In this document: positions 1,368 through 27,103 of the stretch, piece by piece
Layout: the number at the start of each line of letters is the position of its first letter
Position numbering within the stretch: position 1 is the first letter of the stretch
Source: a virus
Direction: 5' to 3' (one strand)
Virus record (IMG/VR): IMGVR_UViG_3300027704_000128
Coordinates: 1-27,103 of that record
DNA length: 27,103 nucleotides
Program-made: the position numbers and the translations under genes
Notes under the pieces: model-generated
The model's database searches: none
Seen by the model: the letters and a program-made list of their open reading frames with translations, nothing else
What the model was told of the DNA's origin: nothing

Positions 1368-1369
1368 AT

Positions 1370-3808: not shown

Positions 3809-3830
3809 TTATTAACTTATATTTTATATT

Positions 3831-4961
3831 ATGAATGAAAATGAAAACATTGAGGAAACTCAAGACATTGAATCTACTGAACAAGTAGAACAACCCCAAG
3901 AAGAAGTGGTAGAACAAGAGTCGCCGATCTCTTACAAAGACGACGGTACAATTGTTCTCAACATGGATAAAGTTAGCGAACTAGAAGCTGCAAACGAAGA
4001 AATTGAACAATCAGCAGAGGCTACGCAAGAAGCTGCAGCTCAAGTTGAGGTTCCTGAAGAGAGTATAGAACAAGAGGTAAATAACACAGTTGAAGAAGCT
4101 AACCAAGCTATTGAAGCAGCGGAACAAACTGGACAAGCGTTACCAGAAAATATACAGAAGCTAGTTGACTTTGTTAACGATACTGGTGGAAACGTAGAAG
4201 ATTACGTTAAGTTAAATCGCGATTATAATGAAATGGATAATCAAACAGCGCTTAGCGAATATTATAAAATAACTAAACCTCACTTAGATGATGAGGAAAG
4301 AAGCTTCTTAATGGAAGACAACTTTTCGTTTGACGAAGAGATTGATGAAGAAAGAGAAGTAAGAAAAAAGAAAATAGCCTTAAAAGAGCAAGTTGCAGAG
4401 GCTAAAGCCTATTTAGACGGGCAAAAGTCTAAGTATTATGATGAGATTAAAGCTGGATCAAACCTTACTGCAGAGCAGCAAGAAGCGATACAGTTCTTTA
4501 ATCAGTATAACGAGGATACGGTAGAAAGCGAGAGATTAGCTAGAGATAGATCAGAGCAGTTTACAACGAGGACTAACAAAGTTTTCAACAACGAGTTCAA
4601 AGGTTTTGAATATAACGTTGATGGTAAAAAGCTTAATCTTAAAGTACCTAATGCAAATGAAGTAGCGAGAAATCAAAGCGACATCAATAATTTTATTGGA
4701 AAGTTTTTAAACGATGACAATAGTATTAATGATGTTGAAGGTTATCACAAAGCTTTATATGCCGCTATGAATCCGGATGTTATTGCAAAGCATTTTTACG
4801 AACAAGGTAAAGCTGATGCTATACAAAACACTGTCGCTAAAGCAAAAAATATAAATATGGATGCTAGACAGTCTTTTAGTAATGAAAGCACTAGTGGATT
4901 TAAAGTAAAAGCGCTAGACACAGACAATGGTCCTACGTTTAGAATTAAAAAACGAAATTAA
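3831..4961 (+). CDS. Probable capsid scaffolding protein
   Basis: This is likely the internal scaffold that organises capsid subunits around the portal before packaging. The call rests on position (between portal and capsid genes) and composition, not on a recognised motif. Residues 1-130 are very acidic and rich in Glu, Gln and Ala. Residues about 165-205 are a charged helix (EEREVRKKKIALKEQVAEAK). The C-terminus is basic (FRIKKRN), as in scaffolds whose basic tail binds the coat protein. The length (376 aa) is usual for such proteins. No protease catalytic motif is visible, so a fused scaffold-protease is not supported. The 22-base leader before the ATG is almost pure A/T with no ribosome binding site. 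Confidence 0.62.
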   Translation: MNENENIEETQDIESTEQVEQPQEEVVEQESPISYKDDGTIVLNMDKVSELEAANEEIEQSAEATQEAAAQVEVPEESIEQEVNNTVEEANQAIEAAEQTGQALPENIQKLVDFVNDTGGNVEDYVKLNRDYNEMDNQTALSEYYKITKPHLDDEERSFLMEDNFSFDEEIDEEREVRKKKIALKEQVAEAKAYLDGQKSKYYDEIKAGSNLTAEQQEAIQFFNQYNEDTVESERLARDRSEQFTTRTNKVFNNEFKGFEYNVDGKKLNLKVPNANEVARNQSDINNFIGKFLNDDNSINDVEGYHKALYAAMNPDVIAKHFYEQGKADAIQNTVAKAKNINMDARQSFSNESTSGFKVKALDTDNGPTFRIKKRN

Positions 4962-4985
4962 TTAACAATTTAAAAACTATTTATT

Positions 4986-6485
4986 ATGGCAATTACTGCA
5001 GGAAATAGTTTGAATAGCGTGCCAGCTGCAAAGCCGCAAACGTTAGAATCAAACTATATAGACTTCAACCAAGACATGGGTTGGGCTCAACAATATTTAC
5101 CAGATCTTATGGAAAAAGAAGCTGAAGTTTTCGGACCGAGAACTATTTCAGGATTTCTTTCAAAAGTAGGAGCTGAAGAAGCGATGACTTCTGATCAAGT
5201 TATTTGGTCTGAACAAGGTCGTTTACATTTATCTTACAAAGGGCACATTCAAAGTGCAACAGGTGGTACTGCTTCTGGTGGTCAAATCGAAATTGAAGTT
5301 GATATTGACGGAAACGATATAGCCGCAAATCACGGTATTAGAGTTAATGATACTATCATCGTTGCTAACTCTCAAGGTGTTGTTAAGTGTTTAGTAGAGG
5401 CTGTTGATACAGGTTCTATGATTGACGTTTTACCTTACGACTTTGCATCTTTAAACACTGCTAGTTTAACAACTACTGGTGGAACACAAGATACAACTAT
5501 ATTAGTTTATGGTTCTGAGTTTGGTAAAGGTGTAAGTTACAACAACTCTGCAAACAGTGCTGCTACTGACCAGAGAGGTGCTAACGAGCCTTCGTTCAAA
5601 ACTTTCTCTAACAAGCCAATTATCATGAAAGACTACTACGAAGTATCAGGATCTGATGCATCTCGTATTGGTTGGGTTGAGATTACTGGTGAAGAAGGAC
5701 AATCAGGTTACTTATGGTACTTAAAAGCTGAAGCTGACACAAGAGCTCGTTTTAACGACTACTTAGAAATGTCCATGCTTGAAAGTGAATTGAATCTTGC
5801 TGATTCTCAAATTGACGGTAACGCTCTTGTTGCTGGATCTACAGCTGGCGCTGGAAACGTTGGTACTGAAGGTTTATTCTCTGCTATTGAAAAGAGAGGT
5901 AACGTAACTTCTGGTGTTACTGGTGTTAACGCTGCTACTGACTTAGCTGAATTTGATGCTATCTTAGCTGAATTTGACAAGCAAGGAGCAATTGAAGAAA
6001 ACATGCTATTCGTTAACCGTGCTACTTCTTTAGCATTTGACGATATGTTAGCTTCCATGAACTCTTACGGTGCTGGTGGTACTTCTTATGGAGTATTTCA
6101 AAACGACGAAGATATGGCTTTAAACTTAGGTTTCTCTGGATTCAGAAGAGGTTCTTATGACTTCTACAAGTCTGACTTCAGATACTTGAATGACTTAGCT
6201 ACTCGTGGTGGTATTAATGCTGCTGCTGGTTCTAACGCTATCCGTGGGGTTGTTATTCCTGCAGGTACTTCAACTGTATATGATCAGCAATTAGGAAAGA
6301 ACCTTAAGCGTCCTTTCTTACACGTTAGATACAGAGCTTCTCAAACAGATAATCGTAGAATGAAAACTTGGACTACTGGTTCGGTTGGAGCTTCTACATC
6401 TGCTTTAGATGCAATGCAAATTCACATGTTATCAGAAAGATGTTTAGTTACTCAAGGTGCTAACAACTTTATGTTAATGAAGTAG
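4986..6485 (+). CDS. Major capsid protein
   Basis: This is the main shell subunit, expected to have the HK97 fold. The 499 aa length, the position after portal and scaffold, and the N-terminal sequence (RTISGFLSKVGAEE at 52-65, then TSDQVIWSEQGRLH at 68-81) fit capsid proteins of Bacteroidota and marine podoviruses. Residues about 92-178 look like a beta-rich inserted domain with an IRVNDTIIVAN strand. The gene has its own codon use: by hand count only 3 of about 26 Ile codons are ATA, against a strong ATA preference in its neighbours, and CGT is common for Arg. That is the pattern of a highly expressed gene. It is followed at once by a strong terminator. The start has an A/T-rich leader (TTATTATGGC) and no Shine-Dalgarno sequence. 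Confidence 0.9.
   Translation: MAITAGNSLNSVPAAKPQTLESNYIDFNQDMGWAQQYLPDLMEKEAEVFGPRTISGFLSKVGAEEAMTSDQVIWSEQGRLHLSYKGHIQSATGGTASGGQIEIEVDIDGNDIAANHGIRVNDTIIVANSQGVVKCLVEAVDTGSMIDVLPYDFASLNTASLTTTGGTQDTTILVYGSEFGKGVSYNNSANSAATDQRGANEPSFKTFSNKPIIMKDYYEVSGSDASRIGWVEITGEEGQSGYLWYLKAEADTRARFNDYLEMSMLESELNLADSQIDGNALVAGSTAGAGNVGTEGLFSAIEKRGNVTSGVTGVNAATDLAEFDAILAEFDKQGAIEENMLFVNRATSLAFDDMLASMNSYGAGGTSYGVFQNDEDMALNLGFSGFRRGSYDFYKSDFRYLNDLATRGGINAAAGSNAIRGVVIPAGTSTVYDQQLGKNLKRPFLHVRYRASQTDNRRMKTWTTGSVGASTSALDAMQIHMLSERCLVTQGANNFMLMK
5259..5519 (+). other. Beta-rich insertion in the major capsid protein
   Basis: Residues about 92-178 are Gly/Thr/Asp-rich, with alternating hydrophobic strands (VNDTIIVAN, SMIDVLPYD). 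They separate the conserved N-terminal segment from the rest of the coat. The pattern resembles the VGD-type modules of the tail-hub gene. It may be a surface insertion domain on the HK97 core; this is inferred from composition only. Confidence 0.4.
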
Positions 6486-6499
6486 AAATACTTTTTTTG

Positions 6500-6531
6500 A
6501 ACTACCCTGCCTTCGGGTGGGGTAGTTTTTT
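6500..6531 (+). terminator. Factor-independent terminator after the capsid gene
   Basis: The arm AACTACCC (6500-6507) pairs with GGGTAGTT (6520-6527). The inner bases extend the stem with two G-U wobbles and two C-G pairs, closing on a C(UUCG)G tetraloop (UUCG at 6512-6515). The stem totals 12 pairs and runs into six T (6526-6531). There is no T tract on the opposite strand, so it works only in the + direction. It begins 14 bases after the capsid stop and probably limits read-through so that the capsid mRNA is made in excess. Confidence 0.9.
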
Positions 6532-6555
6532 ATTAATTTTTTATTATATTATATT

Positions 6556-7395
6556 ATGGCAAAGAAACAAGCCGCAGCAAAAGCTGCACCAAAAGTTGAA
6601 GTAGCACAACCAGAAATTAAAGCTACAAATGAAATGGTTGAAGTAGTTATTGAAAAACCTCAACCTAAAAAAAATGAGTGGGAAATAAAAGATAGAGTAT
6701 ATTATCTTAAAGGTAGAAAAAAACCTTTGTCTAGAGCTATTAGATCTGCAAATGTTTATTGGTTTGACAAAGAAAAAGGCTACGAAAGAGAAATTAAGTA
6801 CTGCGAGAATCAAACAACACCTTTCGTTGACGAAATGAAAGGCGATCAAAGGCTTTCGCACATTATATTTAGAAGCGGATCTTTATTTGTTCCTAAAGAA
6901 AAAACTATTTTACAGAAGTTTTTGACTAATTATCATCCAGATGCAAACAAACTATTTCACGAGCATAAACCTATTAAAATTGCAGAAAATCAATTAGACT
7001 GGTTAGAATTTGAAGTTCAAGCAATGGTTATAGCTAGAGACATGGACATTGATATGGCTGAAGCTGTAATGAGAGTAGAGAAAGGATCTGAAGTTAATAA
7101 GCTAAGTTCTAAAGAACTTAAAAGAGATTTGCTACTATTTGCAAAGAAAAATCCTAAGCTGTTCTTAGAGCTTACTACAGACGATAATGTAATGCTTAGA
7201 AACTTTGGTATTAAAGCTGTAGAAGCTAACATAATAAAACTATCAGGTGATCAACGTTATTTTACGTGGGTATCTAACGATAGACAAATTATGACTGTAC
7301 CATTTGATGAGCACCCATATTCTGCTTTAGCCGCTTGGTTTAAAACAGATGAAGGCATGGAGATTTACTCCAATATTGAAAAACGATTAAACTAA
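6556..7395 (+). CDS. Head-associated protein of unknown function (279 aa)
   Basis: I do not recognise a named domain. The protein starts with an Ala/Lys-rich, probably disordered segment (MAKKQAAAKAAPKVEVAQP). A compact charged domain follows, with WEIKDRVYYLKGRKKPLS near residues 42-59 and then FVDEMKGDQRLSHIIFRSG. The C-terminal half is mostly helical (KELKRDLLLFAKKNPKLFLEL and onward to GMEIYSNIEKRLN). Its position between the capsid gene and the neck adaptors suggests a head-completion, decoration or DNA-contacting structural role. It is flanked by two UUCG-capped hairpins, so it sits in its own small segment of the transcript. The leader is A/T-only for about 20 bases before the ATG, without a Shine-Dalgarno sequence. 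I have seen similar sequences in uncultured marine phages, but no function is known to me. Confidence 0.6.
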   Translation: MAKKQAAAKAAPKVEVAQPEIKATNEMVEVVIEKPQPKKNEWEIKDRVYYLKGRKKPLSRAIRSANVYWFDKEKGYEREIKYCENQTTPFVDEMKGDQRLSHIIFRSGSLFVPKEKTILQKFLTNYHPDANKLFHEHKPIKIAENQLDWLEFEVQAMVIARDMDIDMAEAVMRVEKGSEVNKLSSKELKRDLLLFAKKNPKLFLELTTDDNVMLRNFGIKAVEANIIKLSGDQRYFTWVSNDRQIMTVPFDEHPYSALAAWFKTDEGMEIYSNIEKRLN

Positions 7396-7404
7396 TTAAT
7401 CACC

Positions 7405-7444
7405 ATAGTAGAGCAGCCACTCTTCGGGGTGGTTGCTAAACTAT
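7405..7444 (+). promoter_or_regulatory. UUCG-capped RNA hairpin without U tract
   Basis: The arm GCAGCCAC (7413-7420) pairs with GTGGTTGC (7429-7436, one G-U). Inside it a T-G and a C-G pair close a UUCG loop (7423-7426); outside it is A7412-T7437. An outer ATAGT/ACTAT stem (7405-7409 with 7440-7444) lengthens it past a small internal loop. No U tract follows (the next bases are AAAAAACA), so it is a poor intrinsic terminator. It may stop RNA decay, mark an RNA processing site, or be a weak or factor-dependent terminator. It ends 13 bases before the next ATG. Confidence 0.65.
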
Positions 7445-7457
7445 AAAAAACATAACA

Positions 7458-8207
7458 ATGGCAGTAAGCATAGATACAGTATATCAAAAAGTATTAGCGC
7501 TAGCTAATAAAGAACAAAGAGGTTATGTTACGCCTATAGAATTTAACTTGTTTGCAGAGCAAGCACAGTTAGATATATTTGAAAACTACTTTAGAGATTT
7601 AGATCAAGCTCAAATGATTCACGGTGCCTCTACGGAGTATGGTGATCTTGTAGACACTCTAGCTTCTAAAATAGCTCCATTTCAACAGTTTGATGTAGCT
7701 ATGTCTGCTATAGCAAATACAAATGAATTAACACTTCCAACATCTACCGCTGTACATAGATTAGGTACAGTTTTCTACGAAACAAGTTCTGATAATTTCA
7801 AAGAAATAGAAAGAGTAGAAATAAACGATTTACGTATGATGCAGCAAACTGGTTTATTTAAGCCTAGCGCTTCTAGACCAGTATACGTTTACAAGACTAA
7901 TAGCATATTAAAAATATTTCCATCATCTAATACTCCTAACTACGCTACTTCTAATATATCGTGTAATTATATAGCTAAACCTACTACACCGTATTGGAAT
8001 TATGTTGTAGTTCCAAACTCTGCTGGAGGTAATGAATATCCACTACATGACTCTACTAACACAGTAGACTTTGAGCTACACCCGTCTGAAGAAGACACTT
8101 TGATATTTAAGATATTAGAGCTTTCAGGTATACTGCTTAATAAGCCTGGTATAGTTTCTATAGCAGCTGGAAAAGATAAGGATAATAGAAATCAACAAAT
8201 AGCATAA
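7458..8207 (+). CDS. Head-tail adaptor / neck ring protein (predicted)
   Basis: This is probably the first ring attached beneath the portal. The N-terminal helix region (VYQKVLALANKEQRGYVTP, residues 8-26, then FNLFAEQAQLDIFENYF) and the late segment FELHPSEEDTLIFKILELSG (about 211-230) match a recurring type of virion protein found after the capsid gene in Bacteroidota phages. The middle is beta-rich. The length (249 aa) suits a connector. It ends one base before the next adaptor gene, and the pair is placed just as the head-completion and tail-tube A proteins are in podoviruses. No Shine-Dalgarno sequence precedes the ATG (AAACATAACAATG). The exact ring position is inferred. Confidence 0.6.
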   Translation: MAVSIDTVYQKVLALANKEQRGYVTPIEFNLFAEQAQLDIFENYFRDLDQAQMIHGASTEYGDLVDTLASKIAPFQQFDVAMSAIANTNELTLPTSTAVHRLGTVFYETSSDNFKEIERVEINDLRMMQQTGLFKPSASRPVYVYKTNSILKIFPSSNTPNYATSNISCNYIAKPTTPYWNYVVVPNSAGGNEYPLHDSTNTVDFELHPSEEDTLIFKILELSGILLNKPGIVSIAAGKDKDNRNQQIA

Positions 8208-8208
8208 T

Positions 8209-9111
8209 ATGGGATTATTCGAAGGAACAACAGGAAATTACTATCAAGGGGCAGACAACACCCAAAACACAGCTGATGATACTCAATATGGGAATTATCA
8301 GTTTACTTCGTTAGAGCACATTATAAATCAGTTTATTCTAGCTTATGTTGGTGAAGACAAAATAATATCTAAAATAAGAAGAGCTGACGTTGCTTATCAT
8401 GCACAGCGTGCTTTACAAGAGATGAGTTTTGATGTTTTCAAGTCTACTAAAGCTCAAGAAATAGAAGTACCTGCAACGCTGCAAATGGTACTACCTCACG
8501 ACTACGTTAACTATGTTAAGCTTTCGTTCTCCGACGGAGCTGGTATCAAAAGAGTGATATACCCAACAAGGCTTACTAGTAATCCAGACGCTATAACTCA
8601 AGGAACTGACGGTAGCTACACTTTAGATGGTGACGAAATACAAACATCAGACTCTGATACTTGGACAGCTTACAAAGGACAAGTACTTCCTGAAAACGGA
8701 ACAGCTAACTACGATTACGACGACGACATATACAATGATATTGTAGGTCAAAGATATGGTATAGAGCCAAGTGAAGCTCAGACAAACGGCTCATTTTACA
8801 TTGATGACAAAAAAGGTAAGATACACTTTAGCTCTAACTTGTCTGGAGCAACAGTTATACTCGATTACATTAGCGATAGCTTGGGCACAGACGCTGAAAT
8901 GCAGGTACACAAGTTTGCTGAAGAAGCAATGTACAAATATATAGCTTATGCTGTACTTTCAACTAGAGCTAACGTTCAAGAGTTTATAATACAAAGATTT
9001 AGACGTGAGGCTTTTGCTTCAAAAAGAACTGCTAAGCTTAGATTGTCAAATATTAAGTTACAAGAAATAGTACAGCAATTAAGAGGTAAAGCTAAACACA
9101 TAAAACACTAA
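8209..9111 (+). CDS. Tail adaptor protein (tail-tube A / gp11-like position, predicted)
   Basis: This is likely the adaptor ring between the portal/neck and the tail hub. The helical segment around residues 35-85 (LEHIINQFILAYVGEDKI, then RADVAYHAQRALQEMSFDVF) leads into a beta domain starting EIEVPATLQMVLPHDYVNYVKL. A second helical region (about 225-295, with EEAMYKYIAYAVLSTRANVQEF and a basic RFRREAFASKRTAK segment) closes the protein. This helix-beta-helix layout is common in podovirus tail adaptors, whose outer helices pack against the portal. An acidic insertion (YDYDDDIYNDI) lies near residues 164-174. It begins one base after the upstream adaptor gene and ends three bases before the tail-hub gene, so the three are translationally close. 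Confidence 0.6.
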   Translation: MGLFEGTTGNYYQGADNTQNTADDTQYGNYQFTSLEHIINQFILAYVGEDKIISKIRRADVAYHAQRALQEMSFDVFKSTKAQEIEVPATLQMVLPHDYVNYVKLSFSDGAGIKRVIYPTRLTSNPDAITQGTDGSYTLDGDEIQTSDSDTWTAYKGQVLPENGTANYDYDDDIYNDIVGQRYGIEPSEAQTNGSFYIDDKKGKIHFSSNLSGATVILDYISDSLGTDAEMQVHKFAEEAMYKYIAYAVLSTRANVQEFIIQRFRREAFASKRTAKLRLSNIKLQEIVQQLRGKAKHIKH

Positions 9112-16231: not shown

Positions 16232-16888
16232 ATGTCATTTGCAATAGTAGCAGTAATAGGAGCGGCGGCTGGTTTAGCTAAAGTAGGTATTGGTTTAAGT
16301 AAGAAATCAAAACTTAAAGGTAAGCTAAAAAAAGCAAAGCAAAAGCAAAAAGAAGCTTTCAATCAATACAAAGATAGAGAAATAACAAATCCATACGAAA
16401 ACTTAGAGAACACTTACGAAGACTTACAAGTCAACACGCAACAAGCGGAGTTTGAAGCTAAACAAAATCAACAAGCCCAAGCAGATATTATGGGTAATCT
16501 TCAAGGTGCTGCCGGTAGCTCTGGTATTGCAGGCCTTGCTCAAGCTATGGCAAACAAATCTACACAAGACTCTGCTAGATCTTCTGCTAGCATAGGACAG
16601 CAAGAAGCTTCTAACGAAAGAGCATCGGCTGGAGGAGCCGCTAGTGTGCAATCGCAAAAAGCAGCTGGTGAAGGTCAACGCCAGCAAATGGAATTAGGTA
16701 GAGACCAAAACATACTAGAATATAGAGCTGGTCAAACAGCAGGTAAGCAGCAAGCAGTGTCTGATAACAACCAAATGATGATGAGTGGCATTGGCGATGT
16801 AGCTGGTGCTGGTATGCAGTACTTTGGTGGTATGCCTATGAAAAGAAAGCCTAAAGGTAAGAAAGTTAAAAGAAACAAAAAGAAGTAA
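16232..16888 (+). CDS. Small internal virion / DNA-ejection protein (predicted)
   Basis: A 218-aa helical protein. Residues 3-22 form a hydrophobic, Gly/Ala-rich segment (FAIVAVIGAAAGLAKVGIGL) and are followed by a Lys-rich stretch. The middle is Gln/Ala/Ser-rich (AEFEAKQNQQAQADIMGNL, then GIAGLAQAMANKSTQDSA), and the C-terminus is strongly basic (KPKGKKVKRNKKK). This is the composition of the first, smallest ejection protein of podoviruses (T7 gp14 or P22 gp7 in role), which inserts in the host envelope as the DNA leaves. It lies one base after the cupin-like gene and two bases before the next predicted ejection gene. The role is inferred from order and composition; no enzymatic motif is visible. 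Confidence 0.6.
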   Translation: MSFAIVAVIGAAAGLAKVGIGLSKKSKLKGKLKKAKQKQKEAFNQYKDREITNPYENLENTYEDLQVNTQQAEFEAKQNQQAQADIMGNLQGAAGSSGIAGLAQAMANKSTQDSARSSASIGQQEASNERASAGGAASVQSQKAAGEGQRQQMELGRDQNILEYRAGQTAGKQQAVSDNNQMMMSGIGDVAGAGMQYFGGMPMKRKPKGKKVKRNKKK

Positions 16889-16890
16889 GC

Positions 16891-18357
16891 ATGGCGGATA
16901 AAAAAACAGACGAGGAAAAGCAAAGTGGTTTTTACAACATGGGTAAAGGCGCTAGCTATACAGATAGAACCTCAGGTTTAAATTCTTTAGCAGATGCAAT
17001 GAACTTGCAAATGCAGAATTACTCTGAACAAATGGCTTTAGCTGCCGCTCAACGTAGGGCCGCTAGGCAAGATAAAAAAGCGGAGAAGCGAGACGAAAAA
17101 AAGTATGGAGAAAACCCTGATCAACCTATGGACACTCCTACCGGAGAACAGCAGGGAAAGATAGATGCTAACACTGAGGCTAACAAAAAGCGTACTGAAG
17201 ATCTTACAAATCCGCCGCCTCCACCAAGTGCAGTAACAATGAAAAGTCCTATAAAGAACTTATATAGTGCTGCTCGTGGATCAACTTACAGTGGTGACAT
17301 TAAAAAAACTTCGCAAGAACTAAGTGGCATCGTAGCTTTTTCAAATAAAGTAAAGCTAGATATGAAGAAAGCTCTTAATGATAAAATATCAGCAGAGCTC
17401 AAAAACTTTGTTCCAGAAGCTATAGATATTCAAGGCTTTGACAACTTTAAAAACGGTAAAAACGCTTGCACTAATTTTGGCATGAACTTAAAACAGCAGC
17501 TGGCACAGAAGAAAAATGAGGCGCTAAAGTTAAACCCGTACTCCGAAGAGTATAAGCTTACTATAAAAGACATAAACAATTTAGTAGAGTCTAGTAAAAA
17601 TTTAACGCTAGAAAAAACTAAGTTATCAAATATGAAAACAGAGTGGGGAGAAACTAGTATAGGTGACTTGTATTCTCAAGGTTCTTCAAAAATGTCTATG
17701 AATTATCTAGATCAAGTTCATGGTGGTATGGCGGGTATGACTCTTGATCCTTTTGGCAGAGCTCAATTTATGGTTGCTGTAGTAGATGAAAATGGAGAGT
17801 TTGTAACAGAAGTAGTTGACGGTCAACCAAAGCAAATAGAGCAGCTAATGACTATAGACCAAATGATGAGTAACGTTTTTGAAAAAGTCGATGCTAGTGA
17901 GGATTACAGAACGCTACAGTCTGAAATAAGAGACAACGTTAGAAATGACATAAGCTTTGACAGAGAAGGTGTTGAAGGTTATTGGGATAAAAAGATAGCA
18001 CCAAGATGGAAGTCTGGAACTCAAGACGAAGAAATACTTTCTTGGATCTACGATAATCCTGAAGGCGGAACAGAATCTTACTATGACTACTTCGCTAAGA
18101 CTAACACATTTACAGAAGAGCAGTTAAAAGAAGTTTTTAACTATGACACATCTGATTGGGACCAAATATATCCTGGTACAGATAAAACGCTCAGAGAAGT
18201 CATCTATAGCGATCTAGTAGCGTATAACACTAGTATAGTTGAAAACTACTATAGCAAGCAGACTAGAACAGAGGACAAGCACACTAAGGAGAATAACTTT
18301 AACGTAGGCGAAGGCTTTGGCGAAACAGACTTTTCACAATACGTTGTAACTAGATAA
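16891..18357 (+). CDS. Second internal virion / ejection protein (predicted)
   Basis: A 488-aa soluble protein with no recognised catalytic motif. The N-terminus is helical, with Gln/Ala and charged residues (AAAQRRAARQDKKAEKRDEKK near residues 50-70), then a Pro-rich linker (NPPPPPSA, about 107-114). After that comes a mostly helical body and a mixed segment (MTLDPFGRAQFMVAVVDENGEF) near residues 285-306. The C-terminal region is acidic and aromatic (WIYDNPEGGTESYYDYFAK). Position between a gp14/gp7-like protein and a giant protein parallels the middle member of the three ejection proteins in T7 (gp15) and P22. The start is 2 bases after the upstream stop. I have no independent domain evidence. 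Confidence 0.55.
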   Translation: MADKKTDEEKQSGFYNMGKGASYTDRTSGLNSLADAMNLQMQNYSEQMALAAAQRRAARQDKKAEKRDEKKYGENPDQPMDTPTGEQQGKIDANTEANKKRTEDLTNPPPPPSAVTMKSPIKNLYSAARGSTYSGDIKKTSQELSGIVAFSNKVKLDMKKALNDKISAELKNFVPEAIDIQGFDNFKNGKNACTNFGMNLKQQLAQKKNEALKLNPYSEEYKLTIKDINNLVESSKNLTLEKTKLSNMKTEWGETSIGDLYSQGSSKMSMNYLDQVHGGMAGMTLDPFGRAQFMVAVVDENGEFVTEVVDGQPKQIEQLMTIDQMMSNVFEKVDASEDYRTLQSEIRDNVRNDISFDREGVEGYWDKKIAPRWKSGTQDEEILSWIYDNPEGGTESYYDYFAKTNTFTEEQLKEVFNYDTSDWDQIYPGTDKTLREVIYSDLVAYNTSIVENYYSKQTRTEDKHTKENNFNVGEGFGETDFSQYVVTR

Positions 18358-18368
18358 TTTTTTTTAAT

Positions 18369-21300
18369 ATGAGTAATACAAGATATAAAGTAGGTGAAAC
18401 AACTTACGATATACCAGAAAATAAAGTAGACTCTTTTTTACAAGCAAAGCCAAACGCAGTACTTGTTAATGAGGGAAAGCAAAACGCTTCTCAGACACCG
18501 GATGCAACTGTGGAGCAAAACACTACGGCATCCGAATTGGAAAACACTTCTTTGGATACAGATCCAACGGAGGTGAAAACTGTTGTTGAACTACCTGAAG
18601 TAGAGCCAGTCTTTTTTAAAGACATAGAAATAACAACTGATCAAGTTAGGCAAGATGTAAAGTGGAGCTTCCACGAGCTTGGCGTTATAGGTAATCTTAA
18701 TAAAAAATACGAAGCGCTACTAAGCAAGGACAAAACAATAGTAAACGTCAACGGCAAAGAAGTACCTAATCCTGAATACTTAGAGTTCACTAGAAGCGAT
18801 CTTGATTTTGGTGGTGGCAAGAGTATATACATAAGATCTAATCAACTTACCAGTCTGCAAAAAGAAGATATAGTTAAATTTATGCCTGAAGGCTTTGGAA
18901 AAGGCGATTTTTTTGGCACTGTAGAAGAGTCAGGCTTAATAAAAATAAAGCTACCTAAAGCAAGCGCTAGTAAAGAGGAGTGGGATAAGGCAACGGCTGC
19001 AATGAACGAAGTGATTAAACTGCACTACGAAGGCGTTAAGTCGGCAGGTAGCGCTCCACAGAAAGGATCATCAACTTATTTACCTGAGAAGAATAAAGCA
19101 GACATCATTAGCTCGACGCTTGAGTATGAAACTGAAAATATAAAGCTTCGCGAACAAATAAAATATGCTGTTGGGGAAGAAAAAGAAAGACTTGAAGAAG
19201 CTTTAAAATATAACGAAGAAAATAAAGACGAATTAGTAGATTATTACAAAAACTACGATAAAGCTTTTGAAAATCACAAGTATAATAAAGGCCAAGTCAA
19301 AGATAACCTAGCGGAAGTAGAGCGTATACGAAAAGAGGCCAATAGAAGATACAACGATATGGTGGGTACGGAATACCAGCTAAGCAAGTTTGAAGTTGGA
19401 ACGTATCAAGAAAGTGGAAGAGAACAATATGTAGACTCCGCTTTAAACGTATACGCGTCTAACTTATCTCCTAATCAATTAGACAAAGTAAACAAAACTT
19501 TAGTAGACGAAAAAGCAGTTGAACAGCTAATTACAGAGACAGATATATATGGCCCCACCTTTGGAATGGACTACGAGGCTAGTGGTGAACAAATAGATGT
19601 TAGCTTTTTAAATGACGAGCAGAAAATTAAGCTGTTGAGAGGTTTAAACGGAAGAGAGATAGCACAACTAGCCAAGGGCGATTTTAGTGTTGCTATGAAA
19701 GAGCAGCAACTAAACACTTCACTTTGGAGTTTGCTAGATGAAAGCAGAAGCCAAATTAACGAAGAGTTTGAAGACGCGTCTGGTCAAGCTAAAGAGCTCA
19801 CGCAGTTAAAGAGAGATATAGATTTAGAAAGCCAGAACATACAGGAGTTGTCTAACAGTATCAACTCAGAGTTTGAAATACTAAACTCTCAAATGGAAGA
19901 TGTTCAGTCTATATTAGAAGGTGACACTGATAAGCTCGCGAAGCTCAATGGTACTATAGAGCAAATGAAAGCAAATCCTAGTGGATACACCGATGAACAA
20001 AAGCAAAATGCTATTGACGAGTTCAATAGAACATTAGCAAACGTTAATGACGCTCAGGGTGAACTAAACACGTTGAGCGATCAATATGAAAGCATTGAAG
20101 AAAGAAATTCCAACCTACAGTCAAGAAGTGACGGTATTAATTCAAAAATAAATCAATTTAATTCAGAGCAAGAAGATTATCTTAAAGAACTAGAGAAGCT
20201 AAACAAAAGAGAGTCTGCTTTAGCTTCTACTTACGGTTTTACTATTAGTGGTGAAGTTATTGGCAATAGATTTGAAATAACAGACAAGTATCAAGAGTGG
20301 AAAAATAAAAATGTCTCTGGAACTAACTCTGACGGCACACCGTTTAACTCTGGGTTTTTTGGATCTGCTAGAGATCTAGGTAATAGAATAGCGCAAGGAT
20401 TAGCTATTGAAGTTGTAGACTTGTATGTAGGTACGGGTGTTTGGGGAACAAATCTACTTGGCTCGTTTATGAAAGGTGCAACAGGTATAGGTAGCTATAG
20501 CGACAGCGATCAAGTGTATGATAGATACGATCAACTAAACGCTATGTATAAGAACTACGTTTCAGATGCTAGCTTTTTAGCTGTTGCGGACAGTTTAGAA
20601 GGTAGCGCTTTTAGTAGCTACAAGCACTCTATGCAAACTATTGGTAACATGCTTCCTTTCACACTTGCATTAATAGGTAGCATGCGAAAAGGTAACTTTT
20701 CTAATACCCAAGCAATATACAAGCAGCTTTCTAAGAAAGGCTTTAGCAAAAGAAAGCTTGAAGTATTTAAGACAACCGAAATAGGTTTTAGACTTACAGC
20801 TATAGATCAGTATCAAGAGGCTAAAGATCTTGGCTTAAACGATGACCAAGCTTTGGGTTATTCAACTTTTACAGGCTTAGCAATAGGACTTTCTAACTCA
20901 GTATTTTCCGGGGAATTTGGCTTTGGCAAGCAGCAAGCTGTTAGAGAAATATTTAAAACGTTTTCAGGTAGCTTAAAACAAGCGGCCACAAAACAAGCTA
21001 TAAACAAAACAATAAAAGAAGCAACTGTTAACTTGTTCCAGGAGTTTGGTGAAGAAGAAATAGAGCTTATACTAAGTGATGTTGCTAAACACTCTTTTGG
21101 TTTAAGCCACGCCGCAGAGTTTACTAATTTTGAAACTCACCAACAAATAGTTGAAGGTACTATATTACTTTCTGGTACGTTAAAAGGTGTTGGCGGTGGT
21201 TCAGTTCAAGACTTTAAAAGGTTTAAAAGTGAGGTATACAATGGATTTAAACAGAGATCTGGTGAAGTGATAGAAGATATTAACTCTCAAATAGCAGCTA

Positions 21301-24300
21301 TAGACACTAAAATAGATCAACAAAAAAATCCGCAATACATAGGTCCTAAGTCAGCTGACTTACTAGAGCAAATGAAAAACGAGCTTATTCAAGCTAGAGA
21401 CTATGGTATGCTAATACAAAACGCTATTAACTTATCACCTGAAAACGTTACAAACGAGCAGCTAGATTTGATAATTCAAAAAAACGAGTTGTTAGCTACT
21501 AAGAAAGATACAGATCCAGCTTTTCACGCAATGTTTGATGAAGAGATAAACAAACTAAACGAGCAAATACAAAACTCTGATGTTACAAGTGTTGCTAGGC
21601 AAAACTTTGAAAGAACTGTAAGCAATACAGAGAAGATAATAAATGCTATCAATCCTTCTTTAGGAAACAGAAAAATACAGTTTAAGTCTTTTGATGGCGA
21701 AAACTCTACGCAAGACATGTACGACTTTTTAGTTGGTGAAACTGGTCTTGATTTAGAAACAGCTGAAGAGACTATAGGTTCTCACGGTGGCGCTTTTGTG
21801 GCAGACGGAGTTGAATATATTATTGTAAACAAACCTGTGTCGTTGTCTTCTACTGGAGCCAATGTTGCCGCACATGAGTTGTTACACAAGATGATGTTCA
21901 TGTCTATGGCAGAGCGTGATAGCAAAGGTAATTTAATTACTGACGAAAACAACCAGCCTGTTATAAACAAAGAAACAGCAATGGCTTTGGCTCAAGGTTT
22001 AGGAAGCTACATAATGGGTATAGACGCTACTAAAGTAGAGAACTCTATATTTGCCTCAAGACTAAGAGCTTATCAACAAGCTCCAGCTAGTGTTCAAGCT
22101 CAAGAAGTTTTAACTTTATTTTCCGACGCTTTAGCCACTGGTGATATTAAGTTTGAAGAAGGTATATTTGAAAAAATAGGTAAATTTTTAGAAAAAGCTT
22201 ATCAAGCAATTGGTCTACCTATCAGCACTGGAGATAGTAAAAATCCAGGTGTAAAACTAAAAACAGGTAAAGACGTATTTAACTTCCTAAAAGGCTTTAA
22301 CGAAAGCATTAAAAAAGGTTCGCTAACAGCTGATCAAAAAGCTATGTTTCTTGAAGGGGCTACAATAGAAGGAGAACTTGCAGACTTGAAGGTTGATGAA
22401 GATATAATAGAAGCTTCTACAGCAGAAAGAAAAGAAGAAGGATCTATAATTCTGTCGTCAAAAGAACAAGTTTATCAAAGGGTTGAAGCCATGAAAGACA
22501 GGCTTGTAAAAGCTGATACAAAAGAGGTTACTGCTATTGAAATAGCCTACGAATTACAAAACGAGATAGAAAGAAGGATGCAGTTTTTAGAAGGTGTAGA
22601 TATTTCTGAAATAGCCCTTGAGTTTATGACTTCTGATTCTAATAGAGGTTTGCAAGCTATATTAAAGAAATACGATCCTAATAGAAACGACAGTGTTATG
22701 GGCTACTTAAACGGCTTTGTGCCTGGCACTGGTAGAAGCTTAATGGACGTTAGGCTTCAAGAGTTTTATGAAAACGACCCTAGATACGCCAACATAATAC
22801 AATCAACTAGCGAAGAAGCTGTTGGAAGAAAAGTTGAAAATAGAATAACGGAAGAAACTGTAGAACAACAGCCTGAAAGAAAAACAAAGCTAAAGGTACT
22901 AGCAGATCAACTAAATGTAAGCAAGCAGGTAGATGGTGCCGTTGCTAATGCAGATGTAGATGTAACTTCTATATTTAACTTCAAGTCTGTTCCTAATGCT
23001 GCGGCTGGAACAGTAGGTGAGTTGATGGGTATATCGCCTGCTAAAATAAAATCTAAAGCAAACTTAACTAAGTCAGAACTTGCTAACGCTCAAAGATTTA
23101 TCAAGAAAAACGTAGGCGTGCTAATAGGTATGATGCCAGAAGGCTTTGACTCATCAGGTAAAGCTACAGGTGTGCCTAAAACTATGTTAGATGCTTTCTA
23201 CACTAAAAGAGAGTCAAGAGCTAAAACAAAAGCTGGATTACAGACTCAAGTAAAAAGAGGTAATATAAAAGACTCTGAGTTCTTAGAGATATTTAATATA
23301 TTCGAAGGTATTCCAGATAGATCAGATAGAAATACATCGGCAAGAGTTATTGCGCTAGCAAACTTAATGGGTAAAGTTATGACTAACCAGTCTATTAGAA
23401 AACAAAACCCAAGCGTCGTATCTATTGCAGACGGAATGTCTAAGATAATGTTCTCTAAAGAAATTGATCTAAACAAAACAAAAGATATAGACAAAACTAT
23501 AGAGTGGGGCACGCAAGGCGGATTTGCATTGCAGCCAAAATCTTATTGGATGAAAGGACTACACGGGTCTGGTGCTAAAAACACTAACATCGAAGAAGAT
23601 GGTGAGCAAGTATACTTAGATGAAAACAACAACAAAACTTTTAAGAAAACAAAAACAAAACTTAAGCGTTATCCACTGAAAACGGGTGGTTCAATACTTA
23701 ATAACGATCCAAACTTTAGCGAAAGTACAATTAACCACGTCCCTGCTAGTAAAGGTATTTTTGCAAACGCTCCTCAAAGAGATGCTATATTAAATAAGTA
23801 CGAAGAAGATGGAGGTAAGTTTTTACCGGCTAGCGAAACGTACCAAGCGGCTTCAGATAGAACAACTGTTTACGGCAAAAAAACAGGTGAGCAAGTAAAA
23901 GCTTTAATAAATAAAAATCAAGATAAGTTTAACAAGTCGGAAAAAGGCTTTATAGACTATTGGTTGAACATACAAGAAGACATAGAAAATAATCCAAAAA
24001 ACGAAAAGTATTGGGCTGCTTTGCTAGAGGTTACTTCTACTAACCAATCGAGCTTCATGAGGGTTGGATCTAGACTTATAGGCTACAATACCCTTGGTTT
24101 AGAGAATCGTGAAGAGCACATGTCTCCTGCTAGTGATTTTGCTAAATATCTATTTCAAATGGCGAAAGATGGGTTATTAACGCGTAGGCAAATGAAGCAG
24201 GCAATGAAGTCTTATACTCAAATATCTCTACCGTTGATATATGATGAAATGCTAAAAGGTGTAGATGTTGATGGTAAGCCTTTTGATTACACAAAGGTTC

Positions 24301-27103
24301 TACCTAAAGAGTTTGCAGGCCTACCTGTTAAGCTTCAAATACTACAAGGTATGATACCTAATTGGGTGAGGTATATAAATCCTAATGTTAATGCTATGCC
24401 TTACACTTTAAACGGCAAGCAATACTATGGCATGAATCCTAATGTGCTAATGTTAGGCGATGGTAGAAACTTAGCTCAAACGTACGGCTTAGGAGTAGAC
24501 TCTTCTTTAGAAATGAATCAAGATGTTATATCTGTTCAGCAAGAACTTTTGTTTAAAGTATTCATGAACAATATTACGAAAGCAGAAGCTGTCTCTGAAC
24601 TAAACAACTACGTTAACAGTATGATTCCCGCTGCGTCAACTATAGCAATGTTTAGTAAAAACATCGATGCTAACAAAGCTAATGTAAACCCTAATGGTAT
24701 TACTATTCTAGACTTTGATGACACATTAGCTACCACTAAATCTAACATACTTTACACGGCTCCTGACGGAACTAAAGGAAAACTTAACGCAGAAGAGTTT
24801 GCTAAGAAAGGTGCTGATCTATTAGGGCAAGGATACGTTTATGACTTCTCTGAGTTTAACAAAGTAGTTAGAGGTAAAACAGCTCCTCTATTTAACAAAG
24901 CTTTAAAGCTAGCTGGAAAATTTGGTACAGACAACATGTTTGTTTTAACAGCTAGACCAGCAGAAGCCGCTTTAGCTATATCTCAATTTTTAAAAGCAAA
25001 CGGCTTAGATATACCTTTAAAAAATATAACTGGCTTAGGTAACTCTACGGCAGAAGCAAAAGCGTTATGGGTTGCTGGTAAGTTCTCTGAAGGCTACAAC
25101 GACTTTTACTTCGCTGATGATGCTATTCAAAATGTTAAGGCTGTAGATAATATACTAGAGCAGTTTGATGTAAAAAGAAAAGTACAACAAGCTAAAATTA
25201 ACTTTAGTAAAGATCTTGATCCTAAGTTTAATCAAATGTTAGAGCGTAGTGCCGGCATTGGTGCTCAAAAGATATTCTCAAGAGTTGAGGCTGCTAAAAG
25301 AGGTAAGAACAAAGGTAGGTTCACTTTCTTTGTACCACCATCTGCTGAAGACTTTACTGGACTACTTAGATACTTTGCTGGCACAGGAAAACAAGGTGAT
25401 GCTGACATACAGTTTTTTAACGAAGCTTTAATAAAGCCTTTTGCTAGAGCTGATAGAGCTATGGGTCAAATGAAACAAGCCATAAGAGATGATTATAGCG
25501 CTTTAAGAAAAAAGTTTCCTGATGTTAAGAAGAAGTTAGGCAAGTTGATAGAAGGAACTACTTTTACAAACGACATGGCTGTACGAGCTTACTTATTTGA
25601 CAAGGCTGGATATGAAGTACCTGGTCTTTCAAAACAAGGTAAAGCTAAGCTAATTAATACTGTCAAAGGAGATCCTGAGATGAGAGCTTTTGCTGATGCA
25701 CTAGGTATAATATCTAAGCAAAAAGATGGCTACTTAAAACCAAGTGAACACTGGAATACAGAAAACATAGCTTTAGATTTACAGAATGCTACAAACAAAG
25801 TAGGTAGAAAGCAGTTTCTACAGGAGTGGGTTCAGAATAAAGAAATTGTATTTTCTCCTGAAAACATGAACAAGATAGAAGCTGTGTATGGTACGCAGTT
25901 TAAAGAAGCTTTAGAAGACGTATTATTTCGTATGGAAAACGGAACTAATAGATCTTCTGGCAAAACTTACGGCCAAGGCTGGACTAACTGGGTTAATAAC
26001 TCCGTTGGTGCGATTATGTTCTTTAATGCAAGATCTGCCGTACTACAAACCTTATCTACGGTTAACTTCATAAACTTTGAAGACAACAATATATTTGCCG
26101 CTGGTAAAGCTTTTGCTAATCAAAAACAATACTGGGCTGACTTTAGCTTCTTGTTTAACTCTGACTTCTTGAAAAACAGAAGAGCTGGATTAGCAACTAA
26201 TGTAAACGAAGCTGAACTCGCAAGTGCTGTTGCTGGTGCGACCAACAAGGCTAGAGCTGCTTTAGGTTATTTACTTAAGATAGGTTTTACACCTACACAA
26301 ATTGCAGATAGCTTTGCTATTGCTTCAGGTGGCGCTACGTACTATAGAAACAAAATTAAAACATACCTAAAGTCAGGGTTGTCTCAAGAGCAGGCAGAGA
26401 CTAGAGCTATGCTTGATTTTCAAGAAATAGCTGAAGAAACTCAACAGTCTGCTAGACCAGATCGTATATCTCAACAGCAAGCTTCTCCACTAGGTAGAAT
26501 TATACTAGCATTTGCTAACACACCTATGCAATACAACAGGCTTATTAAAAAAGCAGCTGGAGATCTTGTAAACAAAAGAGGTGACTGGAGGTCGAATGTA
26601 TCTAGAATACTTTACTACGGAGCTATTCAAAACTTCATATTTGCATCTTTGCAAAATGCTTTATTTGCTTTAACGTTTGACGACGATGATGAAGAGCTAA
26701 CAGAGTCTCAACAGGCTGCTAGAGATAAAAAAGAAGAAACTAAAAACTTTAGAATACTAAACAGTATGTTTGATTCTTTAGCTAGAGGATCTGGTATTTA
26801 CGGAGCGGCTCTAGCTACTGTTAAAAATGCTATATTTGAATTTTACGAGCAAGAAGATAAAGGTTACAGAGCAGACTACAATCAAGTTGTTATTGAGTTA
26901 TTAAACGTTTCTCCTACAATAGGCTCTAAAGTTAGAAAACTAGCTAGCTCTGGCTACACGCGTAAGTCTAAAAAAGACGTAATGCAAGAAATGTCCATGT
27001 TAGACTACGACAACCCAGCTTGGCAGGCTATAGGTAATGTAGTAGAAGCTACTACAAATATACCAATGGCTAGAGCCATAAGAAAAGCAGATAATCTTAG
27101 AGA
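18369..27103 (+). CDS. Giant internal virion protein with zincin and HAD domains (right end cut)
   Basis: I translated this frame by eye from the ATG at 18369 to the edge and found no stop: 2911 complete codons, end outside the window. Order of parts: residues 1-30 carry a short motif (KVGETTYDIPENKVDSFL) resembling N-termini I recall from other giant virion proteins; about 457-623 is a long coiled coil; 679-705, 755-772 and 830-848 are hydrophobic; HELLH is at 1169-1173; an EEHMSPA motif is at 1915-1921; HAD motifs span 2115-2251; a long helical region follows with WVNNSVGAIMFFNARSAVLQ; a hydrophobic segment lies at about 2744-2770 and is followed by DDDDEE at 2771-2776. It is third in the run of ejection genes, the place of T7 gp16. 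It is most likely packaged and ejected with the DNA. No RNA-polymerase motif was found in the visible part. An 11-base T-rich gap precedes the start. Confidence 0.9.
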   Translation, partial: MSNTRYKVGETTYDIPENKVDSFLQAKPNAVLVNEGKQNASQTPDATVEQNTTASELENTSLDTDPTEVKTVVELPEVEPVFFKDIEITTDQVRQDVKWSFHELGVIGNLNKKYEALLSKDKTIVNVNGKEVPNPEYLEFTRSDLDFGGGKSIYIRSNQLTSLQKEDIVKFMPEGFGKGDFFGTVEESGLIKIKLPKASASKEEWDKATAAMNEVIKLHYEGVKSAGSAPQKGSSTYLPEKNKADIISSTLEYETENIKLREQIKYAVGEEKERLEEALKYNEENKDELVDYYKNYDKAFENHKYNKGQVKDNLAEVERIRKEANRRYNDMVGTEYQLSKFEVGTYQESGREQYVDSALNVYASNLSPNQLDKVNKTLVDEKAVEQLITETDIYGPTFGMDYEASGEQIDVSFLNDEQKIKLLRGLNGREIAQLAKGDFSVAMKEQQLNTSLWSLLDESRSQINEEFEDASGQAKELTQLKRDIDLESQNIQELSNSINSEFEILNSQMEDVQSILEGDTDKLAKLNGTIEQMKANPSGYTDEQKQNAIDEFNRTLANVNDAQGELNTLSDQYESIEERNSNLQSRSDGINSKINQFNSEQEDYLKELEKLNKRESALASTYGFTISGEVIGNRFEITDKYQEWKNKNVSGTNSDGTPFNSGFFGSARDLGNRIAQGLAIEVVDLYVGTGVWGTNLLGSFMKGATGIGSYSDSDQVYDRYDQLNAMYKNYVSDASFLAVADSLEGSAFSSYKHSMQTIGNMLPFTLALIGSMRKGNFSNTQAIYKQLSKKGFSKRKLEVFKTTEIGFRLTAIDQYQEAKDLGLNDDQALGYSTFTGLAIGLSNSVFSGEFGFGKQQAVREIFKTFSGSLKQAATKQAINKTIKEATVNLFQEFGEEEIELILSDVAKHSFGLSHAAEFTNFETHQQIVEGTILLSGTLKGVGGGSVQDFKRFKSEVYNGFKQRSGEVIEDINSQIAAIDTKIDQQKNPQYIGPKSADLLEQMKNELIQARDYGMLIQNAINLSPENVTNEQLDLIIQKNELLATKKDTDPAFHAMFDEEINKLNEQIQNSDVTSVARQNFERTVSNTEKIINAINPSLGNRKIQFKSFDGENSTQDMYDFLVGETGLDLETAEETIGSHGGAFVADGVEYIIVNKPVSLSSTGANVAAHELLHKMMFMSMAERDSKGNLITDENNQPVINKETAMALAQGLGSYIMGIDATKVENSIFASRLRAYQQAPASVQAQEVLTLFSDALATGDIKFEEGIFEKIGKFLEKAYQAIGLPISTGDSKNPGVKLKTGKDVFNFLKGFNESIKKGSLTADQKAMFLEGATIEGELADLKVDEDIIEASTAERKEEGSIILSSKEQVYQRVEAMKDRLVKADTKEVTAIEIAYELQNEIERRMQFLEGVDISEIALEFMTSDSNRGLQAILKKYDPNRNDSVMGYLNGFVPGTGRSLMDVRLQEFYENDPRYANIIQSTSEEAVGRKVENRITEETVEQQPERKTKLKVLADQLNVSKQVDGAVANADVDVTSIFNFKSVPNAAAGTVGELMGISPAKIKSKANLTKSELANAQRFIKKNVGVLIGMMPEGFDSSGKATGVPKTMLDAFYTKRESRAKTKAGLQTQVKRGNIKDSEFLEIFNIFEGIPDRSDRNTSARVIALANLMGKVMTNQSIRKQNPSVVSIADGMSKIMFSKEIDLNKTKDIDKTIEWGTQGGFALQPKSYWMKGLHGSGAKNTNIEEDGEQVYLDENNNKTFKKTKTKLKRYPLKTGGSILNNDPNFSESTINHVPASKGIFANAPQRDAILNKYEEDGGKFLPASETYQAASDRTTVYGKKTGEQVKALINKNQDKFNKSEKGFIDYWLNIQEDIENNPKNEKYWAALLEVTSTNQSSFMRVGSRLIGYNTLGLENREEHMSPASDFAKYLFQMAKDGLLTRRQMKQAMKSYTQISLPLIYDEMLKGVDVDGKPFDYTKVLPKEFAGLPVKLQILQGMIPNWVRYINPNVNAMPYTLNGKQYYGMNPNVLMLGDGRNLAQTYGLGVDSSLEMNQDVISVQQELLFKVFMNNITKAEAVSELNNYVNSMIPAASTIAMFSKNIDANKANVNPNGITILDFDDTLATTKSNILYTAPDGTKGKLNAEEFAKKGADLLGQGYVYDFSEFNKVVRGKTAPLFNKALKLAGKFGTDNMFVLTARPAEAALAISQFLKANGLDIPLKNITGLGNSTAEAKALWVAGKFSEGYNDFYFADDAIQNVKAVDNILEQFDVKRKVQQAKINFSKDLDPKFNQMLERSAGIGAQKIFSRVEAAKRGKNKGRFTFFVPPSAEDFTGLLRYFAGTGKQGDADIQFFNEALIKPFARADRAMGQMKQAIRDDYSALRKKFPDVKKKLGKLIEGTTFTNDMAVRAYLFDKAGYEVPGLSKQGKAKLINTVKGDPEMRAFADALGIISKQKDGYLKPSEHWNTENIALDLQNATNKVGRKQFLQEWVQNKEIVFSPENMNKIEAVYGTQFKEALEDVLFRMENGTNRSSGKTYGQGWTNWVNNSVGAIMFFNARSAVLQTLSTVNFINFEDNNIFAAGKAFANQKQYWADFSFLFNSDFLKNRRAGLATNVNEAELASAVAGATNKARAALGYLLKIGFTPTQIADSFAIASGGATYYRNKIKTYLKSGLSQEQAETRAMLDFQEIAEETQQSARPDRISQQQASPLGRIILAFANTPMQYNRLIKKAAGDLVNKRGDWRSNVSRILYYGAIQNFIFASLQNALFALTFDDDDEELTESQQAARDKKEETKNFRILNSMFDSLARGSGIYGAALATVKNAIFEFYEQEDKGYRADYNQVVIELLNVSPTIGSKVRKLASSGYTRKSKKDVMQEMSMLDYDNPAWQAIGNVVEATTNIPMARAIRKADNLR
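19737..20237 (+). other. Long coiled-coil region of the giant protein
   Basis: Residues about 457-623 show heptad-like hydrophobic spacing among Glu, Gln, Asn, Lys and Ser (for example DLESQNIQELSNSINSEFE and QSRSDGINSKINQFNSEQE). Only one NPSGY break is seen. It probably forms an elongated rod or oligomer contact N-terminal to the hydrophobic segments. Confidence 0.65.
21756..22148 (+). other. Zincin-type metallopeptidase domain in the giant protein
   Basis: Residues about 1130-1260. The motif NVAAHELLHKMMF gives H1169-E1170-L-L-H1173 (bases 21873-21887): two zinc-binding His and the catalytic Glu of zincins. It is preceded by strand-like VEYIIVNKPVSL, as in many HExxH peptidases. A later helix AQEVLTLFSDALATGD offers E1246 as a possible third ligand, 73 residues downstream (gluzincin-like); that assignment is a guess. 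The conserved-looking segment TGKDVFNFLKGFNESIKKG follows. Target unknown: self-processing, host envelope or cytoplasmic proteins are all possible. Confidence 0.6.
24696..25193 (+). other. HAD-superfamily phosphatase domain in the giant protein
   Basis: Residues about 2110-2275. Motif I is ILDFDDTLATT, with nucleophile D2115 and acid D2117 (bases 24711-24725). Motif II is FVLTARP with T2194. K2231 (EAKALW) is a candidate motif III lysine. Motif IV is FYFADDAIQNV with D2250-D2251. All four appear in the right order and spacing, each after a hydrophobic strand. A cap-like segment (GKLNAEEFAKKGADLLGQG) lies between motifs I and II. The LTARP form occurs in nucleotide and polynucleotide phosphatases, so a nucleic-acid end or nucleotide substrate is a reasonable guess. 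Confidence 0.75.

Follow-up and report, generated by a model that had tools for sequence, protein, structure and literature searches.

The window analyzed here is a 27,103-base fragment of a virus record. It carries a partial terminase large subunit gene with portal and head genes (3..9111), the gene of a 2073-aa virion protein, small tail-type genes, two ejection-type genes and a giant frame, inside which the 3' edge of the window falls; the terminase-to-head stretch, the ejection-type genes and the giant frame with its parts lie on the plus strand. The first of these genes place the phage. Terminase and portal match those of Flavobacterium phage elemo, Cellulophaga phages, Maribacter phage Panino, Tenacibaculum phages and one metagenomic podovirus, and the capsid-type gene at 4986-6485 matches the same groups minus Tenacibaculum; synteny with cultured podovirus-like flavophages extends from the terminase as far as the giant gene. 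The phage, a tailed one related to isolates infecting marine flavobacteria, is podovirus-like and kin of Cellulophaga phi38:1, Flavobacterium elemo, Maribacter Panino and Tenacibaculum Gundel, and the window represents its structural module. Podoviral morphology has been documented by electron microscopy for Gundel, Calle and Panino (PMC8776804, PMC11590407). The nearest family of the window phage is uncultured; about 500 IMG/VR relatives were found in each of two scans, and a literature search on virus NIOZ-UU157 gave no useful paper. The 2073-aa protein (9115-15336), a second giant in the module, has a match to PHROG 14478, a virion structural family, and a weak one to the C-terminal model of the crAss muzzle.

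The giant frame starts with an ATG at 18369 and continues for 2911 codons without a stop to 27101, where it is still open at the window edge, in agreement with the uninterrupted frame of at least that length described in an earlier note on this DNA. Relatives' frames terminate 47-207 residues past the last aligned window residue, and we therefore expect a protein of about 3,000 aa (range about 2960-3120). Taken as a whole, the protein gave nothing significant against Pfam and PHROG and no tblastn match in 50,697 phage records; the similarity of its family HMM to the giants of elemo, MW202828 and Panino was not significant, and profile searches of PDB sequences returned unrelated proteins or none, with no convincing match to a solved structure.

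Several parts of the protein can nonetheless be delimited. A short N-terminal module of the Y..g..Y.ip...v..F...P.A type, read directly from the sequence, occupies residues 1-45 (18369..18503) and gives way to other short types in relatives. Heptad periodicity (p < 0.0005 in each half) bears out the coiled coil claimed previously, locating a coiled-coil-like region at residues 470-625 (19776..20243). A conserved domain at residues 1511-1690 (22899..23438) shares 45-50% identity in its middle part with about 25 relatives and is modeled by AF2 with pLDDT mostly 70-90, most of the stretch 1512-1700 having no Pfam match. It is followed by an EHxxP domain at residues 1899-2090 (24063..24638; AF2 pLDDT mostly 75-93), for which the Pfam scan gave no match. 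The several hydrophobic segments of the earlier note reduce to one, residues 2752-2770 (26622..26678), which passes a lenient cut (Kyte-Doolittle 1.23), none being found at the usual transmembrane cut. The same position reaches 1.4-1.8 in a number of relatives, and some have stronger hydrophobic segments both at this place and before the zincin.

The zincin-like module lies at residues 1130-1320 (21756..22328) and holds the sole HExxH of the giant, HELLH at residues 1169-1173 (21873-21887). Residue shuffles of the window protein produce an HExxH in 0.6% of trials, and the motif is present in 145 of the 154 relatives of at least 2000 aa, against about 1% in shuffles, being missing from the other 9 full-length relatives. 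N1154 (21828), H1169, E1170, H1173 and the distal E1246 (22104-22106) are invariant in 40 sequences that are only some 25% identical to the window; moreover, E1246 is present in 75 of 75 sequences aligned around the HExxH, an alignment anchored on that motif and in which E1246 played no part as an anchor. In the AF2 model of residues 1090-2090 (mean pLDDT 66, about 70-87 across most of the zincin), a three-strand sheet is followed by the HExxH helix and then by a second helix bearing the Glu, the order of elements described for the MPTase domains of polyvalent proteins (PMC5512222). Foldseek of this model against the PDB returned only matches with E of 1 or more, and hence no meaningful fold match. 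The HExxH first noticed as a bare motif belongs to a real zincin-like module, best explained, from residue conservation and the model, as a gluzincin-type metalloprotease, probably an active one. In one relative (L171, residue about 1107) the motif looks degenerate, reading QEIGH, which suggests that the active site is sometimes lost.

The second candidate enzyme is a HAD-like phosphatase module at residues 2107-2290 (24687..25238). Motif I by itself is weak evidence, a looser version of it arising in 15% of shuffles. We consider the complete HAD motif set claimed in the earlier note to be real because all seven of its residues, D2115 (24711), D2117 (24717), T2119, T2194 (24948), K2231 (25059) and D2250-D2251 (25116-25121), are invariant in 35 relatives. 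All 35 also match PF11019 DUF2608 (best E 1.3e-5), which we take to be a member of the HAD clan, and 11 of the 35 match PF12710 HAD (best 0.011); each match was made by a single sequence, and those of the window protein fall under the curated cut-offs. The AF2 model of residues 2092-2911 (mean pLDDT 74) has Rossmann-type alternation at the HAD region, and motifs I (DxDxT), II (T), III (K) and IV (DD) occur in order on this predicted Rossmannoid fold. A fold search of the PDB with the whole 820-aa model listed the HAD proteins 6aok, 9jz1 and 2x4d, but weakly: their E values exceed 1 and their probabilities are low to middling. Among relatives, dN/dS of the HAD is 0.008-0.18, and the module is, we believe, quite probably an active enzyme.

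Downstream of the HAD, and not set apart in the earlier note, lies the constant part of the giant, a C-terminal helical domain covering residues 2320-2911 (25326..27101) and continuing beyond the window. It is nearly all helical in the AF2 model, and its identity among relatives is about 50-77%. Against predicted viral structures, Foldseek matched it at E 1e-53 or better to four proteins of uncultured viruses; many further proteins followed, with E 1e-11 to 1e-4 and TM-scores mostly about 0.4-0.5, and several of these are annotated as large polyvalent or ART-PolyVal. In its modeled structure, the domain resembles the C-terminal part of phage polyvalent proteins. We also considered whether it is LPD38 itself (PF18857) and, on sequence grounds, rejected that assignment: there was no Pfam match, the hhalign probability was 0.4%, and an LPD38-region HMM was not significant on the family. 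The LPD38-region profiles do match the Panino giant (E about 1e-18) and phi46:3 gp121 (E about 1e-15). The Panino protein (WZE63588, L083:13229-18718) is annotated as a tRNA methyltransferase, a domain that Pfam does not find in it, and the LPD38-region profile covers its residues 999-1473; in phi46:3, the giant slot is divided into two frames, gp120 and gp121 (L089:6439-12958), the second of which carries the LPD38 region.

Comparison of closely related viruses reveals how the rest of the giant is assembled. Loci L071 and L131 are 92.8% identical in DNA over 3.8 kb upstream and 93.1% identical over the first 233 bases around the frame start; about 2.9 kb that includes the zincin then has no DNA match, and from there, through the HAD and past the end of the gene, identity is 94.3%. 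Related patterns are seen in the pairs L051/L045 and L073/L079, and in L038/L128 the difference is confined to the segment between zincin and HAD. N-terminal parts reach dN/dS values of up to 0.8, which mark replacement only, because the compared pairs are often not truly homologous. Nor is the HAD always present: it had seemed universal in the family only because it served as the query, and when the C-terminal domain was used instead, 51 carriers had the HAD and 13 of 64 (20%) lacked it, the 64 being a non-random sample drawn from the best 80 matches. In HAD-less relatives, an EHxxP-type stretch, as read by eye, immediately precedes the C-terminal domain. Furthermore, HAD identity to the window is just 44-59% in its nearest C-terminal relatives (64-77%), and relatives with C-termini at 55-63% include HADs of 71-74% identity; this mismatch suggests that the HAD moved independently of the C-terminal domain. 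The giant gene is a cassette array in which related viruses swap, lose or replace modules, and this is new here. The zincin-plus-HAD toolkit proposed in the earlier note is not a fixed one, the zincin lying in the swappable part and the HAD being missing from a fifth of the sampled C-terminal-domain carriers.

Other modules appear in the family. Relative L070 (2498-3997) begins with an SLT transglycosylase domain (E 4e-8) and one relative has a GH108 glycosidase (E 4.5e-7), both of which fit the expectation for ejected proteins, since such proteins must cross peptidoglycan. The first 40-70 residues of the giants (window 18369-18503; L002-L081, L180-L259) can be sorted into seven or more short recurrent types, including two common hairpin-plus-helix types and one GY..S..F repeat, and HAD-less relatives have different types before a similar linker. 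At L225:6039-7388, the HAD is replaced by a stretch AD..IEYNGKKVDIEAKL that has by eye the look of a PD-(D/E)xK nuclease and gave no Pfam match.

Module exchange bears on what the zincin may do. Its role may be chiefly self-processing, with cleavage of the giant itself while virions are assembled or once it has been ejected, and not that of a host-directed effector. We regard this as a serious possibility of somewhat less than even probability: self-processing has been proposed in published reasoning on the MPTase domains of polyvalent proteins, e.g., phage P1 DdrB (PMC5512222), and the wide divergence of the module (about 25% identity) would suit co-evolution with its own cleavage sites. However, entire zincin-bearing segments are replaced in giants whose C-terminal halves are 94% identical, an exchange that would break a fixed cleavage arrangement, and the N4 virion RNA polymerase has an MPTase domain yet is packaged unprocessed (PMC5512222). 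As to the cut itself, cleavage of the giant and cleavage of a host protein by the predicted zincin seem to us about equally likely.

The case for the giant as a virion component comes from its slot. Immediately upstream lie the genes of a small virion/ejection-type protein of 218 aa (16232..16888), matched in 54 loci, and of a second one of 488 aa (16891..18357), for which no match was found elsewhere by sequence, including by tblastn against 50,697 phage records. They occupy the slots of Cellulophaga phi40:1 gp099 and gp100, both detected by MS/MS. The earlier note's two ejection proteins are thereby placed in the slots of virion proteins; an ejection role would follow by analogy with phage N4, in which the ~3,500-residue virion RNA polymerase is ejected with two ejection proteins through the tail channel (PMC12633501), so that the window's two proteins and the giant may be ejected together. 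The giant's own slot is that of phi40:1 gp101 and phi18:3 gp123, annotated from MS/MS virion proteomics, as are the two smaller proteins upstream of each; in phi18:3, a hypothetical 103-aa gene sits among the genes of this trio. The phi38:1 giant is 99.9% identical to that of phi40:1, and a search of the phi38:1 and phi18:3 giants for the HExxH and HAD motifs found neither, so the MS/MS support for the window giant goes by gene position and not by domain. With that understood, the slot makes it very likely that the giant is packaged in the virion, and it is probably delivered into the host cell as well.

Two other readings must be weighed against this. The giant might serve in the virion structure or the ejectosome, its enzyme-like modules being carried along and contributing little catalysis, as would be allowed by its long coiled coil, by its helical C-terminal domain and by the phi38:1-type virion proteins that fill the slot with neither motif; we find this unlikely, however, given that the catalytic residues of both zincin and HAD are invariant despite strong divergence and that dN/dS of the HAD is very low. 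It might also stay in the producing cell and act in assembly, in head maturation or DNA packaging, a role compatible with the position of its gene in the late structural module. Against this, proteins of the giant's slot are found in mature virions and relatives carry cell-wall hydrolase domains, and we consider an assembly role decidedly improbable.

How does the giant compare with known systems? T7 gp16 is a giant ejected podovirus protein, with an SLT transglycosylase at its N-terminus; such a domain occurs in relative L070, but the family scan of the window giant found no N-terminal lytic transglycosylase. Cellulophaga phi40:1 gp101 (1691 aa) and phi18:3 gp123 (1935 aa) close the structural module behind two smaller virion proteins, as the giant does here, and differ from it in lacking both the HExxH and the HAD motifs. 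Gundel1_74 of Tenacibaculum phage Gundel_1 is also the third gene of a small-medium-giant trio, has an HExxH at 1337 and matches the C-terminal profile of the window family significantly (E 4e-11, in a one-sequence search); its HAD match, in contrast, is not convincing, and the clear alignment spans only about 160 aa. The N4 virion RNA polymerase gp50 is similar in size (about 3,000-3,500 aa), multidomain, equipped with an MPTase domain and ejected with two further proteins, whereas the window giant has no family match to an N4-type RNAP domain at E up to 1 and carries a HAD instead. The closest parallel is with the polyvalent proteins (PMC5512222), which are likewise large and multidomain, encoded with the portal-terminase packaging module and possessed of a zincin with HExxH and distal Glu; the window giant also has two enzyme domains, zincin and HAD, with invariant catalytic residues, and its relatives vary in architecture by domain shuffling. 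It differs in that no significant sequence match to the LPD models was found, and in its HAD, a HAD or phosphatase domain going unmentioned in that paper's main text. Best read, the giant belongs to the polyvalent class, in a form that carries a HAD module as well as a constant C-terminal domain; it is not something categorically new.

We suggest, with reasonable though not full confidence, that a polyvalent-type giant with a constant C-terminal domain and exchangeable cargo is the best explanation overall. The helical domain (about 600 aa) would be the constant part, probably required for packaging and/or for passage through the tail and the cell envelope; the cargo would comprise the short N-terminal module, the coiled coil, the gluzincin-type metalloprotease, the two conserved domains and the HAD phosphatase. 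The zincin would most likely process the giant polypeptide or cleave a host protein, and the HAD would most likely dephosphorylate a small host molecule or a nucleic-acid end early in infection. More tentatively, the giants may form a polymorphic effector system in the virion, in which N-terminal and central cassettes (zincins, HAD phosphatases, peptidoglycan hydrolases and possibly nucleases) are exchanged by intragenic recombination on a constant C-terminal delivery chassis. Such a system would mirror the polymorphic toxins of bacteria, with the difference that its constant part is C-terminal. In either case, an abundant uncultured phage group appears to swap its genome-ejected cargo cassette-like and to retain one domain, and if that domain is a delivery signal, the loading and ejection of giant proteins becomes testable in cultured flavophages. 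The HAD would then be a delivered phosphatase-type activity that goes unmentioned in the main text of the polyvalent-protein survey (PMC5512222); our literature search for a HAD domain in ejection proteins gave no useful paper.

Two minor observations concern the far end of the gene. A good share of related viral contigs stop within about 3 kb past it. Part of the family, e.g., L027:12302-12814, ends in a Cys-rich tail (KRCKMQT..SGYCYYHD) that matches DUF5763 and a TRM13-type zinc finger, and other members are without it.
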